Assembly: GCA_961205875.1 (NCBI GenBank)
Contig: OY540815.1
Coordinates: forward strand, 10,726,001-10,790,000
Length of the DNA stretch: 64,000 nucleotides
Source of the DNA: Sialis fuliginosa
Lineage: Eukaryota; Arthropoda; Insecta; Megaloptera; Sialidae
Direction of reading: 5' to 3'
Position 1 is the stretch's first letter. The number at the start of each line of letters is the position of its first letter. The notes under the pieces are model-generated. The model made no database searches. It was not told where the DNA came from and saw only the letters and a list, made by a program, of their open reading frames with translations. This document shows positions 7,497 to 63,680 of the stretch, one piece after another. Both the position numbers and the translations under genes were made by a program.

Positions 7497-9656
7497 TAAT
7501 TTTGCTTCCTCGCAATATCCAAGTTACGAGAAGATTTGTTATCGGTTTAGAATGAGACAAAAAAATTTTTCTCCGATTTCAAAGTTTTAAATTGTTCTTT
7601 CCGTTTCAGGTCATGACAAACACTCGTTCTGTGTCTGTCTGTCTGTTCCCTGAATCCTTGTCACACACATAACTCATGAACCTCTGAACCGATATTAATA
7701 AAACTTGGTTGGGTGGTTGGATCTGGCTTGAGAACGGTCCCATTTCAAAATCATAGAAATCGTGTGTAAGAGGGAGGGGTGACATCCTAAAATATTTATT
7801 CTTTTAAGATATTTCAAGAACAACACATGTTACGTGAAAATTTCATATAATCTTTTTTGTAGAGTATTAAATTTCCTATAATATAGGTCTACAACGTTTT
7901 TTGTAAAATATTCCCTTACAAAGATTATCTCAATTTGCTTTAAAAAAAATTAATTTATTTTTAAAAATTGATATTTACATTGACATATTAAAGTTCATTT
8001 TGAAGTTTGCATTAATTTAGATTTAGATTTAAATTGTCAAAAAATTAAAAATATACGAAAAAATAATCAGGTGCGTCTTAAAAAAAATTTCGAACTAATA
8101 TTTTTTAGTGAAACTTTATAAAAATTAAATGGTTAACCATTGCCAGGCAATTTATCTTAACACTTTATCGGTTTTTATTTAAATTGTTTAATAATTATCT
8201 ACATTTGGTGAATTTAGCACAAGGAAACACTGTGCATTTACTTGGCAGATGTTTTTTCTTAAATTACAGAAAAAATAATAATACAAAATCTATGAAATCT
8301 TAATCTATATACTCTGGGCTCTTAAATTATAATGTTAAAGAGATAATAAGGTCAGTTGTTTTATCTATATAATAATTGATCCTAAAATTTAATGAAGAAT
8401 AAATATGAATGTTAGATATACATATGTAACTATTCAAAGAACTGTATACGACTTTTGTTAGATGTTTATAATACAGAAACTCAGTAGAGAACACATTTTA
8501 TCGTACATAAAACTATACAAAACAGCGAACAAACGATAGGTATAGAATTTGAAAGCGTTTAAAGAAATATATATCTTATTATCAAAGTTGTCGCGTAGAC
8601 TTCCGCGAGGTGTCACTAGGGACCGATGCTTTTTTTATCTCTTATACTTGTAAGAGGATCAACTTTGAAATTAGTTTAGTTTTATAAAGATTTTTTTGAA
8701 AATGGATATTGAATTTGACCTTTTATAAATTTTTTTACCGGTATCGTTATCATCTAAAAGTATCTACTTAAATAATCATTTCAAATAATTTTCAATTTTT
8801 TGTGTTAAGATGCGGACAGCAGTACAGCAGCGCTTTTTTGTCAATATATTTTTATCGATTATGTTTCTGTGTTAAATGACATTAACTAATTATGAAACCT
8901 ATTAAAACACTCGTATGAACAAAGTTTTGCTAAATATGTTTCATTTTAAACTAATTAAGAAAAATTAGATTACTGTTTTCAATATAGAAGCCATTTTTAG
9001 TAGATAAATCTCAATCATGTAAAATCAGATCGGAATTTCGTCCAAGTGAAAATTTTAACTTAATACAGCTGTAAAAATCCAAGACATGTTATTTTCTACA
9101 ATTTTAAGATATTCAAGATATTTTAAGATAATTTTCTTGGTGTTTATCATCGAATGGATGTTTTACAAAAAACTTCTGCCAAGTAAATGCATAGTGCTTC
9201 CTCGTGCTAAATTCACCAAAGGTAGTTAAATATTGAATAATTTTTAAGACGCACCCGATTATTTTTTCGTATATTTTTAATTTTTGACAATTTCAATCTA
9301 TTTAAAAAAACAAAACCCTATTTTATAGGAAATTGAATGTTCTATAAAAAAGATCCTATAAAATGTTTACGTAACATGTATCGTTCTTGAGATATCTTGA
9401 AAAAAAAATATTGGGGTCACCCCTCCCCCTTACACATGATTTTGATGATTTTAAAATGGGACCGTCCTCAAGACAAATCCAACCAGCAAGTTTCATTAAT
9501 ATCGGTTCAGTGGTTCATGAGTTATGCGTGTGACAAGGATTTAGGGGACAGAAAAAAAAATCAATTTAAAATTTTTAAATCGGAGAACAATTTTTTTGTT
9601 TCATTCTAAAACGATCACAAGGCTTCTCGTATCTTCGATATTGCGAGGAAGCAAAA
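7497..9656. mobile_element. Large foldback element, about 2.16 kb, with very long inverted arms
   Basis: The element opens 'TTTTGCTTCCTCGCAATATC' and closes with its reverse complement (GATATTGCGAGGAAGCAAAA at 9,637-9,656). The inverted match continues inward through most of the left arm (to about 8,262) and the right arm (from about 9,165). Shared landmarks include 'aaccgatattaataaaactt', 'gggaggggtgacatcc', 'acatgttacgtgaaaat', 'aattaaaaatatacgaaaaa' and 'tttagcacaaggaaacact'. The left arm carries about 100 bp that the right arm lacks (around 8,085-8,190). The central 0.9 kb is AT-rich without coding capacity. The 70-codon frame at 9,397-9,609 lies wholly in an arm. This is a non-autonomous foldback element of unknown superfamily. 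A stand-alone arm occurs at 60,791-61,261. Confidence 0.85.
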
Positions 9657-9659
9657 TAT

Positions 9660-45495: not shown

Positions 45496-45500
45496 AATCA

Positions 45501-45915
45501 TTTAGTTGCATTTGTTTCCAAGGCAAAATGAATTAGTGACGTATTAATTAGTTTTTAAAATTTAAATTTTGAATGTGTTTTTCACCTCTTTAATGGATGT
45601 TTAGATACGTATACGTACAAAATTTCGAATATTTTTAAAACCCCTAATCCGATTAGCACCAAAATCAATAGTTCTGGAGTATTGACCAAGGCAAACATTT
45701 TTCCCAAAAATAATTCAAATCGGTGCATTTTTATAGTAGTTATCGTAAACGAAAGAAAATTCTACATTCAGACATACAGACACACGCACAGCCGCCATGC
45801 GAAAAACAACTTTTCTTTTTTGAAGTACAATCAGAATATATCATTATCTGGGACACCATTTTTGGACGGTATTACAATACTTTCATTTCCTTCGGAACAT
45901 GGAAATAAAAATTAA
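45501..45915 (+). repeat. Interspersed repeat with 'TTTCCAAGGCAAAATGAATT' start, copy A
   Basis: Shares long blocks with 59,591-60,063: 'gcatttgtttccaaggcaaa', 'aattagtgacgtattaat', 'aaataattcaaatcggtgca', 'tagttatcgtaaacgaaag', then an 'agacatacagacacacgcac' run and 'gacggtattacaatactttc'. It is non-coding. The 77- and 61-codon frames here are repeat sequence. It is about 55 bp shorter than copy B. Confidence 0.75.
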
Positions 45916-55764: not shown

Positions 55765-57180
55765 CTCTTAACATTATACATATACTGATTAATCAATACA
55801 TAACAACAAAAATATTAAAGACATGTCACTATCGAATGATAAATGACACCTCCTTTGTTTATCATATTTAATTTAACAGTAATTGTCCTACAAATATTTA
55901 CATAACAACATTAAACAATACAAGCATTTGATGAAAAACCTGTTATTTTTGATGTTTTTGTTTGATAGATTCAATTACAATAAGGCATCGAGTACGAATC
56001 GAAACCATTACAATACGAAAGGCGAGTGACATTGTGTTAAATTGACTTCAATTTGATTTCACACAGCTTGGTTTGTTACGAGAAAAGAAATATTGAATTT
56101 AAGTTGAACTTTTACTGGAGCTGAATTGTTTCTGTAGAAGGATACATCTATATATAGAAGAAATATTTATCTGTGTGAAATCTCGGAATGAACTTGTTAC
56201 AGTTATTTGTACGAATCAAAAATTAATTGAAGTATATTGACTGAACATTCTTTATCGGGCGAAATATATATTTTCTATTGAATTACGAAATTGCTTATAT
56301 TTGTGGAAACTTTTTTGTTATAATACTTTTATTTCTTATTTTAATCAATCCGTTAATTAATAAACTAATAATTCACTAACAGAATGAGAATAAAAATAAC
56401 GGCTATGATTGTACAACATAAAATATAACTTGTAATATAAATACAAAATGTTTTATTTTTGGCTAATTTTTGCTGCTATTTGGTTCTTCACATTTTTAAT
56501 ATGGGGTTACACTTTAGAGACATTAGTGACACTATATTTTATTACCTTTACATCCATGCACAAATATAATACAGTCGCATATTAAAAATATCGAGATAAA
56601 TCATGTTAAAAATTAGATTTACTTTTCTACTGTATTACGTAGCAAGCCATACTTAAATGTTAATATATGTTACTATCAAATATACAACATTATTATTCTT
56701 TGTAACTTTCTGGTATTTTTAAAAGATAATAAAATTTACTAATTGATGATTTACCTAATAAAAAGTTAAATTGCTACTTAGCAAATGAACAAAAAGTATA
56801 ACACATTTAAAAATGCTATGTGTGCCACGAGACTTTTTTATACCCTCGCGCTGTACTGATAATGAGTGGACAGTGTACATGTTTCTAATTGTTTAAAAAA
56901 ATCTTTCTGATTTATTTATAAAAGATATAAAAATGACAAATAAATTATTGATAACAGTATTTTCTACAACTTTTAATAAAAACATTTCTTTTCTAATTCG
57001 CACCGTTTAAAAAATAATTTTATTGTCTTTATTAATAATGTACAACAAAAATCAATAAAAAAAATTTCGATAGCAAAAATATTGACTAAAATTTGAACTT
57101 ATACTAATGAATTCAATTCAAAAATTTATATTTATATCTTTACAAATTATTATTATACAAACATTTCCCATACACTCAAT
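55765..57180. other. AT-rich non-coding DNA downstream (3') of the minus-strand exon
   Basis: Contains no recognised exon, repeat boundary or site cluster. If the exon at 57,260-57,370 is real, this is the start of its intron. Confidence 0.4.
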
Positions 57181-57259
57181 CAGAACTCGAAAAAATACGC
57201 GGCTTGTCTAGAGCATTCTTTGACCCAATAATCTATTCTTTTAGAAAAAAGAGACTCAC

Positions 57260-57370
57260 CGCTTCCGGCTTCAACGCGGAGGCCACTTCAAAATCAATTT
57301 GACGTAGAAGCGCGGATGCTATAACATCTGGACTTGACGTTGATAGGCTGTGGTGTATCACTGATCCCAT
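57260..57370 (-). CDS. Partial gene: first coding exon, 37 codons, function unknown
   Basis: The minus-strand exon starts at ATG (57,370-57,368), preceded in frame by TAA nine bases upstream, and runs 37 codons to a consensus donor: ...GAAGCG|GTGAGT, with exon end 57,260, phase 0. Its GC is 50% (55 of 111), against roughly a quarter in the flanks. The start reads MGSVIHHSLSTSSPDVIA and the rest includes ALLRQIDFEVASALKPE, an amphipathic-looking, well-mixed sequence with no signal peptide or membrane segment. A likely acceptor (ttcttttatatag) at 57,395 would make 57,371-57,394 5' UTR in the same exon. The same bases resemble a TATA box but sit too close to the ATG. No known family is recognised. 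The rest of the protein must lie across an intron, possibly beyond this window. Confidence 0.6.
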
Positions 57371-57394
57371 AGCAGTTTAAATATGTTATCTGGT

Positions 57395-58380
57395 CTATAT
57401 AAAAGAACCACCGTTGTCAAGATATCGTTTCAACTATATCAATCCCAAATTTAATTTAATTCTTTAAATCGAACTAAGATATGAATATCATTTAAGTATG
57501 TGTACATATATTTTTATATACATATTTATTTAATGGGGTATTATATATTTAATAAAATATTTGATAAATAAACTCAAATTGAAATAAAAAATTAGGAAGA
57601 TAATAAAAAATATCAAAATTAATTTTCAATTAATTAAAAAAAATCTTTCGATTTTTACATTATACATTCATATTTGGTCGATGACCATATGTAAAAAAAA
57701 ATAGTATATTTAACATAAAAATATTAATGGTGTAAGCTTATTTTATAACTGAATTTGTAAAAATAATGAAAATTAATATAACATAAAAGATAGTTTTAAT
57801 ATAAATGATTCACTTGACCATCAAAAAGATATGAAAATGAAACTAGATTTATCTAACTCTCAGATCTATAATAAAATTCTAAATGAACGAAATTTCAACC
57901 AAATGTATATAAAGATGTTATCTACAATTTTAGTGGATTTATATTCAAGTAATATAAAACAAACATAAAACTAATGTTTCCAACATCAAATTTGTAATTT
58001 TATGTTACTTGAAAACAAAACATACGATATTAATCTTACGACTTATTTCATAAAAATTATATGCTTTTGATTGTATACATAAGAGTATGTAGATTCTACA
58101 TAAATTGTGTTGATACAAGAATATTTATAAATAAATAAAGACAGAAACTGTCAAAATATCAAGACGTCTATAAAATATATTAAATTTTTAGTAGAATGTC
58201 CATGTCCATTGTCCACTTATGCGCTCTACATTATTTACTAACAAAATTAGATTCTTGTTATATATTAAATATTTCTAAACATAATTAAATTATATTATAA
58301 GGAATTTAAAAAAAAAAACATTATTAATCTAGATTATTATAATTCCTATAAAATGAAGTATAGATAAATGTTTACAAACA
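57395..58380. other. AT-rich DNA upstream of the exon
   Basis: No second exon, clear promoter or repeat is visible. The possible splice acceptor lies at its lower edge. Confidence 0.45.
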
Positions 58381-59240: not shown

Positions 59241-59590
59241 TTGTCAAATTTTTATTCAATATTAATTATTTTATTTTTATTTTGAAATGCTTATTGACTT
59301 AAATATTTTTAAGATTATCTGCAAATATAAAAAAAATATTTTATGTGAACATATATTTTGTAAAGATAAATTATTAAAAAATTATACCCCCACAGCCAGT
59401 AAGTTCACTAACTGTAAAATACAAAAATAATTTCATTGTATATGAATTATATTTTCAGTTAATTGTTTTGTTTTGGGAAAAATCTTTAAACGAAAAGTCA
59501 CTATGTCTTCTATACATAAAATTCACTAAATACCCTTTTCGCAATTTGAAAAATTAAAGTAGTAATTAATTATAATCAATATAGTTTGAA

Positions 59591-60063
59591 TTTAGTTACA
59601 TTTGTTTCCAAGGCAACATGAATTAGTGACGTATTAATGTGTATTTAAAATTCAAATTTTGAGGGTGGTTTTCACCCCTTTAATAGCAGTTTAGGCATCA
59701 ACAAATAATAAATATCGAAATCGAACTACAAATGTACCAAGTCTTATCAAAATAAGTGAGATAATACTCGCAACGTTCACTTTTTAGACGATAAAAATCA
59801 ATAAAATCATCTAAAGTACTCACTGAGATAAACATTTCCCCCAAAAATAATTCAGATCGGTGCATTTTTACAGTAGTTATCGTGAACGAAAGAAAATTCT
59901 ATATTTAGACACATAAACACAGATAGACGCACATCCGCCGTGCGGAAATTAACATTTCTTTAAGTTTTGAAGGTATTATAATCATAATCTGCTTTTATCT
60001 CGGACACGATTTTTCGACGGTATTACAATACTTCCATTTCTTTTAGAACATGGAAGTAAAAAC
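59591..60063 (+). repeat. Interspersed repeat with 'TTTCCAAGGCAACATGAATT' start, copy B
   Basis: A direct copy of 45,501-45,915, with extra sequence between 59,695 and 59,830. It shares the opening, the 'aaataattcagatcggtgca' block, 'tagttatcgtgaacgaaag', a degenerate 'acacagatagacgcac' run and the closing 'gacggtattacaatacttcc'. Non-coding. Confidence 0.75.
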
Positions 60064-60790: not shown

Positions 60791-61261
60791 TAAAAAAAAC
60801 TTCTGCCAAGTAAAGGCACAATTTAAATAAAAACCGATAAAGTGTTCAGATTTTACAACAAACGTTGTAGACCTATATTATAGGAAATTGAATGCTCCAC
60901 AATTCTATACAATTTTCACGTAACATGTATCGTTCTTGAGATATCTTGAAAAATAAATATTTTGGGATGTCACCCCTTCCCATTACATACGATTTTAACC
61001 ATTTTGAAATGGAACCGTCCACAAGCCAGACCCAACCATCCAACCAAGTTTCATTAATATCGGTTCAGTGGTTCATGAATTATGTGTCTAACAAGGATTC
61101 AGGGAACAGACATACAGACAGACAGATACGGAACGAAAAGTGTTTGTCTTGACATGAAACGGAAAGATCGATTTAAAATATTGAAATCGGAGAACAATTT
61201 TTTTGTTTCATTCTAAAACGATCACAAAGCTTCCCGTATCTTCGTTATTGTGAGGAAGCAA
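60791..61261. mobile_element. Solo arm of the 'TTGCTTCCTC' foldback family
   Basis: Matches one arm of the large foldback at 7,497-9,656 from 'aaacttctgccaagtaaagg' through 'aaaaccgataaagtgttcag', 'acgtaacatgtatcgttctt' and 'tcattaatatcggttcagtg' to the end 'ttgtgaggaagcaa'. It lacks the opposite arm, so it is a solo arm left by deletion or recombination, or a truncated insertion. It keeps an intact 'acagacatacagacagacag' run that is decayed in the right arm at 9.5 kb. Confidence 0.8.
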
Positions 61262-61884: not shown

Positions 61885-63680
61885 TCTAAGATGTTTACTA
61901 AATATTGATAAAGATGTTCATTTTGTATTGTATTACTATTTACATATATTTTCAAGAAATAAGTCAAAGATTAAATAAATATAACATACGCAGTATATAA
62001 ATAAATGAAAATACATATAAAACAAGCTTTTAAATCGAAATAACATTTTAAACAGTTTTTTTGTGGTGTTAAACTTTTTAATCGAAACCAAGAAGAAGAA
62101 AAATATCTTTATCTATATTCGAAACCGAAACCAAAGAAAAAAGTATCCTTATCCGCAGGCCCTGAGAGAGCTTCAATGGGACCCGAGCCAAACAACATTT
62201 CAGAGGCCCTATACCCCTCCTACAACAAATTCCTTACCCTTAAATTTAGTTTGAACTCGTAAACTTCTTATAACTTTCTAATATTATTTTAGTATTAAAA
62301 ATATTATTAGTATAACTTAAATAAATAAAAACAATAATTTTCGGGGACCTTGAAACCCCAGCGGTATGGGCCCTATGGCCATCCTAATCCCCATCCCCCT
62401 ATCTGGACCTGCTCCGTATCCAATATGTCATATCCCTAACAACCCTACCCAAAACCTTTAAAATCTTGAAATACTAATGTGGGACTTATTATTATATTCA
62501 GTAATAATGTATACATATATACAAATACATTATTTTTAATTTTGTATACCTACTGGTATTATCCGCCTTTAGTAGTTATTAAGTCCCTTAAGTTCGCTCG
62601 AAAACCTGGAAATACCTGCACTTAAAGTTTTTTTTTTAATTTTATTATCGATACCAATGAATTAGCAACGAAAAAAAAGTACATACATGTTTTTTACAAC
62701 AAACGTTTCAGAGAAGCACAATATATTATTATATTATTTGCAAAAGAATATTAACTTCTACAACACTGGTAGTATTTTATTATTATTACAATTTTATTTT
62801 ATCTCTCGAGTAATTACCCGTATCTTCTAAAAACAATTAGCTTTTATTAAAAAATGCGTTGGTTTCTTTTAATAGGGACATAAATTTGATTATCAATTAA
62901 TTTAATGTCACTGAAATAAGTTTAGTTAATTTACTTGATAAGAAATAAAAAAGTTTTTTATGTAAGTGATATAAAAAGGGTTAAATATTTTTAACCAATT
63001 AACAATTCGAGGTATTTGAGTATAATTTTCTCTAAAAATACAGAAAGAGGACAATGTATGACCAAAGAAACGTATAATGTTTTTTGCTTCCCTTCGCTTA
63101 AAATGCTGCATAATATCTAATAACATAAATTTGAAAATATAAAACTCAACACATTTTTTTACAGTGTGCCATCTAGATAAAATGCACAAAGAATCAAGAC
63201 ACACCACTTATTAGCATTAGCTAGCGGGTATCTGGTATATAAACGTATAGAATATAAGTGAGAAAATGTACTGCAAATAGGCTATTATAGTAATGGAGTA
63301 GCTGGAAAGAAATCCACTAATTCCGAATATACATTTATACGCGCGCTCTCAATCCCTGTTTCAATTTTCAACTAGGTTAAGCTTTATAATTATGTAATTT
63401 GTCAATGCAGAACCACGGCCGTAAATTAAACATTTAGGCGAAACTGTTTTGAATTTCTGCTGACGAGTTTGTAGAAATGGATTCTTGGGCAAATTGAATA
63501 AAATAGTAGCTATGCATTTCATATTAATATGCATTGTTTTGTTAAGTATAATGAAATAGAATAGTAATGTTCTCATCAAATAAATTACATCTATTTCTTT
63601 TAATTTAAGGGTGGGGCTTCACACCAAGACGATATCAACATCATTTATAAGTGTCCTCGAGAGATTTGATTTTACAAAAT
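61885..63680. other. Non-coding DNA, partly repeat-like
   Basis: The part 62,090-62,460 contains GC-richer phrases ('caggccctgagagagcttc', 'ccccagcggtatgggcccta', 'catccccctatctggacctg') that read like an old mobile element. Its 63-codon frame is unrecognised. The minus-strand frame of 93 codons at 62,926-63,207 has no motif. Nothing else is supported. Confidence 0.35.

Follow-up and report, generated by a model that had tools for sequence, protein, structure and literature searches.

On the minus strand of the 64,000-nucleotide stretch of DNA analysed here (the window), a short open reading frame runs from an ATG into a strong splice donor and stands apart from any other convincing exon. We consider it moderately probable that this candidate, hereafter the orphan, is a genuine 5′ exon, present in one copy, that is spliced across a very long intron. 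In the proposed mechanism, transcription would start at or upstream of the orphan, and its donor would be joined to a minus-strand exon far downstream, past the window's low-coordinate end. A tentative host is a gene for a MOXD1/DBH-like copper monooxygenase, which is the nearest gene and the only one recognised.

Results

Position, frame, and splice signals of the orphan

The window and the features of the orphan are listed below. Positions without a contig name are those of the window, and C7 denotes the contig.

C7:10726001-10790000, the window, in a genome of 392 Mb
57176..57450, no strand assigned, GC-rich island around the orphan, with its peak over 57251-57375
57260..57370, minus strand, candidate first coding segment (37 codons), ending in phase 0
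57371..57394, minus strand, possible 5′ UTR portion if splicing uses the acceptor before 57394; 57389 is the alternative exon start
57254..57259, minus strand, donor GTGAGT, ranked first among the window's GT sites

On the minus strand, the ATG at 57370-57368 lies nine bases 3′ of an in-frame TAA and is followed by 36 sense codons. The frame is open from the ATG to the splice donor, as in a first coding exon, and its 37 codons encode MGSVIHHSLSTSSPDVIASALLRQIDFEVASALKPEA. It meets the donor in phase 0 (GCG/GTGAGT, with the GT at 57259-57258) and, without splicing there, would close 45 codons from the ATG. Of the window's 6,405 GT sites, counted over both strands, this donor scores best. In the 344 kb of sequence read for partner exons (C7:10466001-10810000, window included), 13 of 35,538 GT sites score at least as high, the orphan donor counted. 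An earlier note on this DNA had described an ATG after an in-frame stop, 37 codons, and a phase-0 GTGAGT, and the coordinates, frame, and signals were all confirmed. The plausible upstream acceptor that it also named is present, at 57394 or 57389, but proves mediocre: the two sites are only fair, being equalled or beaten by 10.9% and 3.8% of 28,178 AG sites, respectively.

The earlier observation of an exon with 50% GC in an AT-rich setting was likewise borne out, as the GC content of the orphan exon is 0.495-0.505 versus a mean of 0.271 for the window. In 50-nt bins, the GC content is 0.24-0.42 next to the exon and drops to 0.12-0.18 outside ~57450 and 57176. The exon is the GC peak of its ~275-nt island, and ten other 111-nt islands in the window are richer in GC. 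A core promoter composed of TCAGT at 57364-57360 and a DPE was rejected, with the DPE-like word lying one base off register.

Exon scan and chance level

Candidate exons were scanned as acceptor-to-donor segments, with approximate splice weights and codon frequencies. In the window, the orphan came first of 47 candidate segments and accounts for two of them, one per acceptor; these scored 26.7 and 25.1, and the runner-up scored 19.4. When the sequence was shuffled with dinucleotides kept within 200-base blocks, 2 of 200 shuffles reached 25.1, and the same two reached 26.7. With the whole window shuffled instead, 25.1 was never reached in 200 trials. The orphan is the top exon candidate of the window, with a chance level of roughly 1% per window, and it was selected from a large scan.

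Codon composition by itself is poor support for the orphan as coding sequence. Open shuffles of the same letters score as well as the orphan in 3.9% of 20,000 cases. The exact exon ranks 23rd by codon score among 292 open GC-matched 37-codon stretches of the 344 kb, and the same frame moved by eight codons ranks second of the 292. In the exon scan of the 344 kb, the segments placed above the orphan are the exons of a MOXD1-like gene described below, their antisense shadows, and C7:10602330-10602496, which has a score of 27.0 and a composition-corrected codon score below zero. Once C7:10602330 and everything in the MOXD1-like gene, on either strand, are left out, the candidates after the orphan score 21.4 or less.

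Copy number and identity searches

A search of the 392-Mb genome with the orphan found nothing but the orphan itself, once as DNA and once as protein. Moreover, it lies outside all dispersed repeats detected in the window, and the multiple copies that mark a transposable element were not found. The peptide, which the earlier note could place in no nameable family, gave no match in Pfam and none among PDB sequences. A tblastn search of plasmids with the peptide gave no match, and its exact degenerate patterns were absent from both the prokaryote contigs and the viral contigs; fragments of the peptide found nothing in literature full text. Because the DNA collections searched are prokaryote, plasmid, and viral rather than insect, these nulls say little about conservation of the orphan. 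The genome is taken to be an insect's from the general appearance of the DNA and from its DBH-like genes. An amphipathic helix over residues 15-33 was considered and rejected, since the hydrophobic moment is unremarkable (43.7% of 5,000 shuffles are as high). As for RNA genes, no Rfam match reached the gathering score in the window, and four sub-threshold matches near the orphan were taken as chance.

Partner exons and the MOXD1/DBH-like gene

In the 57 kb on the 3′ side of the orphan, the exon scan found only weak candidates and no convincing partner exon, which agrees with the earlier account of a lone exon-like unit. Apart from transposon remnants, the coding exons that could be recognised in the 344 kb come from one gene on the minus strand, which encodes a MOXD1/DBH-like copper monooxygenase. 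This gene occupies about 10609-10617 kb of C7, on the same strand as the orphan, and its first coding exon lies 166 kb downstream. The features concerned are as follows.

46214-46125 of the window, minus strand, weak phase-0 terminal-exon candidate, score 12.7, 11 kb downstream of the orphan
C7:10609150-10617232, minus strand, MOXD1-like host candidate
C7:10617146 to 10616886, minus strand, coding part of MOXD1-like exon 1, DOMON positions 15-60
C7:10610500-10610336, minus strand, MOXD1-like exon 2, DOMON positions 66-111

The weak terminal candidate within the window is a possible partner of the orphan and is more likely a product of chance. For the MOXD1-like gene, exon 1 opens with a stretch that resembles a signal peptide by eye. 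Further on, Pfam finds both copper type II monooxygenase domains in a 281-codon open stretch, whose best match among solved structures is dopamine beta-hydroxylase (4zel, E 6.7e-44). The high-scoring segment at C7:10602330-10602496, which has no Pfam match, may be the last exon of this gene or may be noise. A GC-rich open stretch at C7:10697967-10698149, once a partner candidate, has no Pfam match, looks repeat-like by eye, and was dropped.

The exon-1 acceptor and the paralogous locus

An acceptor is found 86 nt 5′ of the MOXD1-like ATG, and it is equalled or beaten by 1.7% of AG sites. The orphan lies on the same strand as the MOXD1-like gene and upstream of an acceptor-bounded exon. Three DBH/MOXD1-like loci are located within 0.5 Mb of C7. 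In a genome search, copper-monooxygenase loci were placed at 10446.7 kb (+) and 10933.8 kb (+) of C7, with others on C10, C11, and C14. The two further loci on C7 have the following extents.

C7:10436286-10447166, plus strand, paralogous MOXD1-like locus
C7:10930898-10934213, plus strand, third DBH/MOXD1-like locus

The paralogue has the opposite orientation to the MOXD1-like gene. From C7:10436286 onward, it is identical to the exon 1 region of that gene at 350 of 383 nt, and the protein identity is 87% for exon 2 and 92% for exon 3. The similarity begins in a T-rich tract ~20 nt before the exon-1 acceptor, and the DNA further 5′ has diverged. The best explanation of similarity that starts at such a tract is a splice site common to both copies, which points to a leader exon upstream. 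Judged from these alignments, the MOXD1-like gene probably has a leader exon upstream of its exon-1 acceptor, and the edge of similarity may also have another cause. For the paralogue, a search for an orphan-like exon gave no significant match in 10 kb (tblastn) or 11.5 kb (blastn). As the orphan is single-copy genome-wide, the paralogue is without a similar exon too. Other non-coding leader exons within the 166 kb would escape the scan and would leave little trace.

Joining the orphan to the MOXD1-like exons

If the orphan donor were joined to the exon-1 acceptor, the intron would measure 166,027 bases, and the resulting frame of 37 + 30 = 67 codons would cross the ATG of the enzyme. In this join, an 86-nt stub precedes the enzyme ATG at position 87, and the orphan frame ends at 91-93, with a TGA two bases past the ATG. 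The frame is not continuous into the enzyme through this acceptor, and the orphan joined to exon 1 is an upstream ORF, not an extension of the enzyme. An upstream ORF across the start codon is expected to depress translation of the enzyme. The phase-0 frame of the stub is open in both paralogous copies. They differ at 8 of the 86 bases, and because five of the six differing codons alter the residue, the stub frame does not look conserved as protein.

MOXD1-like exons 2, 3, and 4 are all entered in phase 0, the phase of the orphan, and are thus compatible in frame. Joining the orphan to any of these exons would leave the enzyme without its signal peptide and with half of DOMON at most; in particular, a join to exon 2 would break the DOMON domain in two. 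Since no join is an obvious fit, the link between the orphan and the MOXD1-like gene is put forward as a hypothesis only.

Discussion

The earlier note had read the exon as either the start of a gene whose first intron is very long or an alternative first exon, and this is still the best reading, because the only recognisable exons downstream (to C7:10466001) begin 166 kb away. Its description as a coding exon stays putative: the frame is open from the ATG to the donor, but codon usage speaks for it only weakly, the acceptor scores are mediocre, and at the nearest join the frame does not enter that of the enzyme. From the layout of the sequence we infer both that the orphan is transcribed and spliced and that the MOXD1-like gene is its host. 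The latter assignment is tentative and takes up a little under half of the probability that we give to a genuine exon.

An explanation that we regard as quite possible, while short of an even chance, is that the orphan is a GC-rich non-coding island, such as an enhancer in a regulatory desert, in which an open frame and a donor-like hexamer have arisen by chance. Selection from a large scan favours this explanation, as do the 3.9% of open shuffles that are equally codon-like and the 2 of 200 block shuffles that reach the exon score. Ten islands of the window are also richer in GC, none of them with a comparable exon in the scan, and the fly gene olf413 likewise has a long upstream non-coding interval with many conserved clusters (PMC3632565). 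However, the GC peak, the frame, and the donor of the orphan coincide, and, C7:10602330 aside, no other candidate of the 344 kb scores above 21.4 unless it lies in the MOXD1-like gene or antisense to it.

Part of the probability given to a genuine exon belongs to an unrelated gene, of which the orphan would be the first exon and whose other exons would be small, AT-rich, or more than 317 kb away. We consider this unlikely. The scan sees short and terminal exons poorly, and weak phase-0 terminal candidates exist, for example at 46214-46125 on the minus strand of the window; however, a gene reaching well past the read sequence must cross a pair of MOXD1-like genes on opposite strands. Many dispersed repeats in the window bring to mind a transposable-element fragment or a gene relic, but the orphan matches only itself in 392 Mb and lies outside those repeats, making such an origin very improbable.

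Insect genes are known to have distal alternative first exons and 5′-leader exons behind very long first introns. The orphan resembles such exons in standing alone with a strong donor, far upstream of a gene on the same strand, across a gene-poor interval. In contrast, its acceptor is only fair, its frame misses the host coding sequence through the nearest acceptor, and it is a prediction from sequence.

For Drosophila, a table in PMC3632565 lists msopa-olf413 among the non-coding regions longer than 65 kb, with a length of 99.2 kb and 86 conserved clusters; the coordinates printed in the same table row span ~82 kb. PMC10848397 describes a P element inserted 1.9 kb upstream of where olf413 transcription starts, with no other protein-coding transcript annotated within ~53 kb and a lncRNA 12.23 kb upstream of the insertion. 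As far as these sources describe olf413, the two cases are alike in that a DBH-like gene ends a long interval in which no coding exon is recognised and which here measures 166 kb up to the orphan. Unlike the fly case, the present one has three DBH-like loci in a span of 0.5 Mb, and the likeness is one of gene family that does not imply orthology.

If the favoured reading of a spliced 5′ exon is correct and the orphan is used, it would mark a remote promoter that serves a DBH-like enzyme gene, or else an unrecognised gene, in an empty-looking region. A more specific and rather improbable scenario is that a promoter 166 kb upstream gives rise to an alternative DBH-like transcript, in which a 67-codon upstream frame would gate translation or the signal peptide would be replaced to yield a cytosolic product. 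Short first exons behind introns longer than 100 kb are easily overlooked, and the orphan is at present a modest annotation lead, ordinary in kind.

Other features of the window and its flanks

Two families of dispersed repeats were observed in the window. One is present as two copies, at 45500-45911 and 59590-60062, which are 82-84% identical in blocks. The other is present as three copies in two orientations, at 7499-7909, 9353-9657, and 60850-61261, which are 86-92% alike in blocks, and translated stretches similar to this three-copy repeat recur in the flanks. In addition, a 108-codon open stretch at 788-1111 on the minus strand resembles a fragment of a Tc1/mariner-type transposase by eye, with no Pfam match at 0.01, and a clearer transposase (PF01498) is located at C7:10656895-10657470. 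Finally, 62083-62458 contains GC-rich blocks in which both strands have open frames, and the scan gave no splice-bounded exon there.
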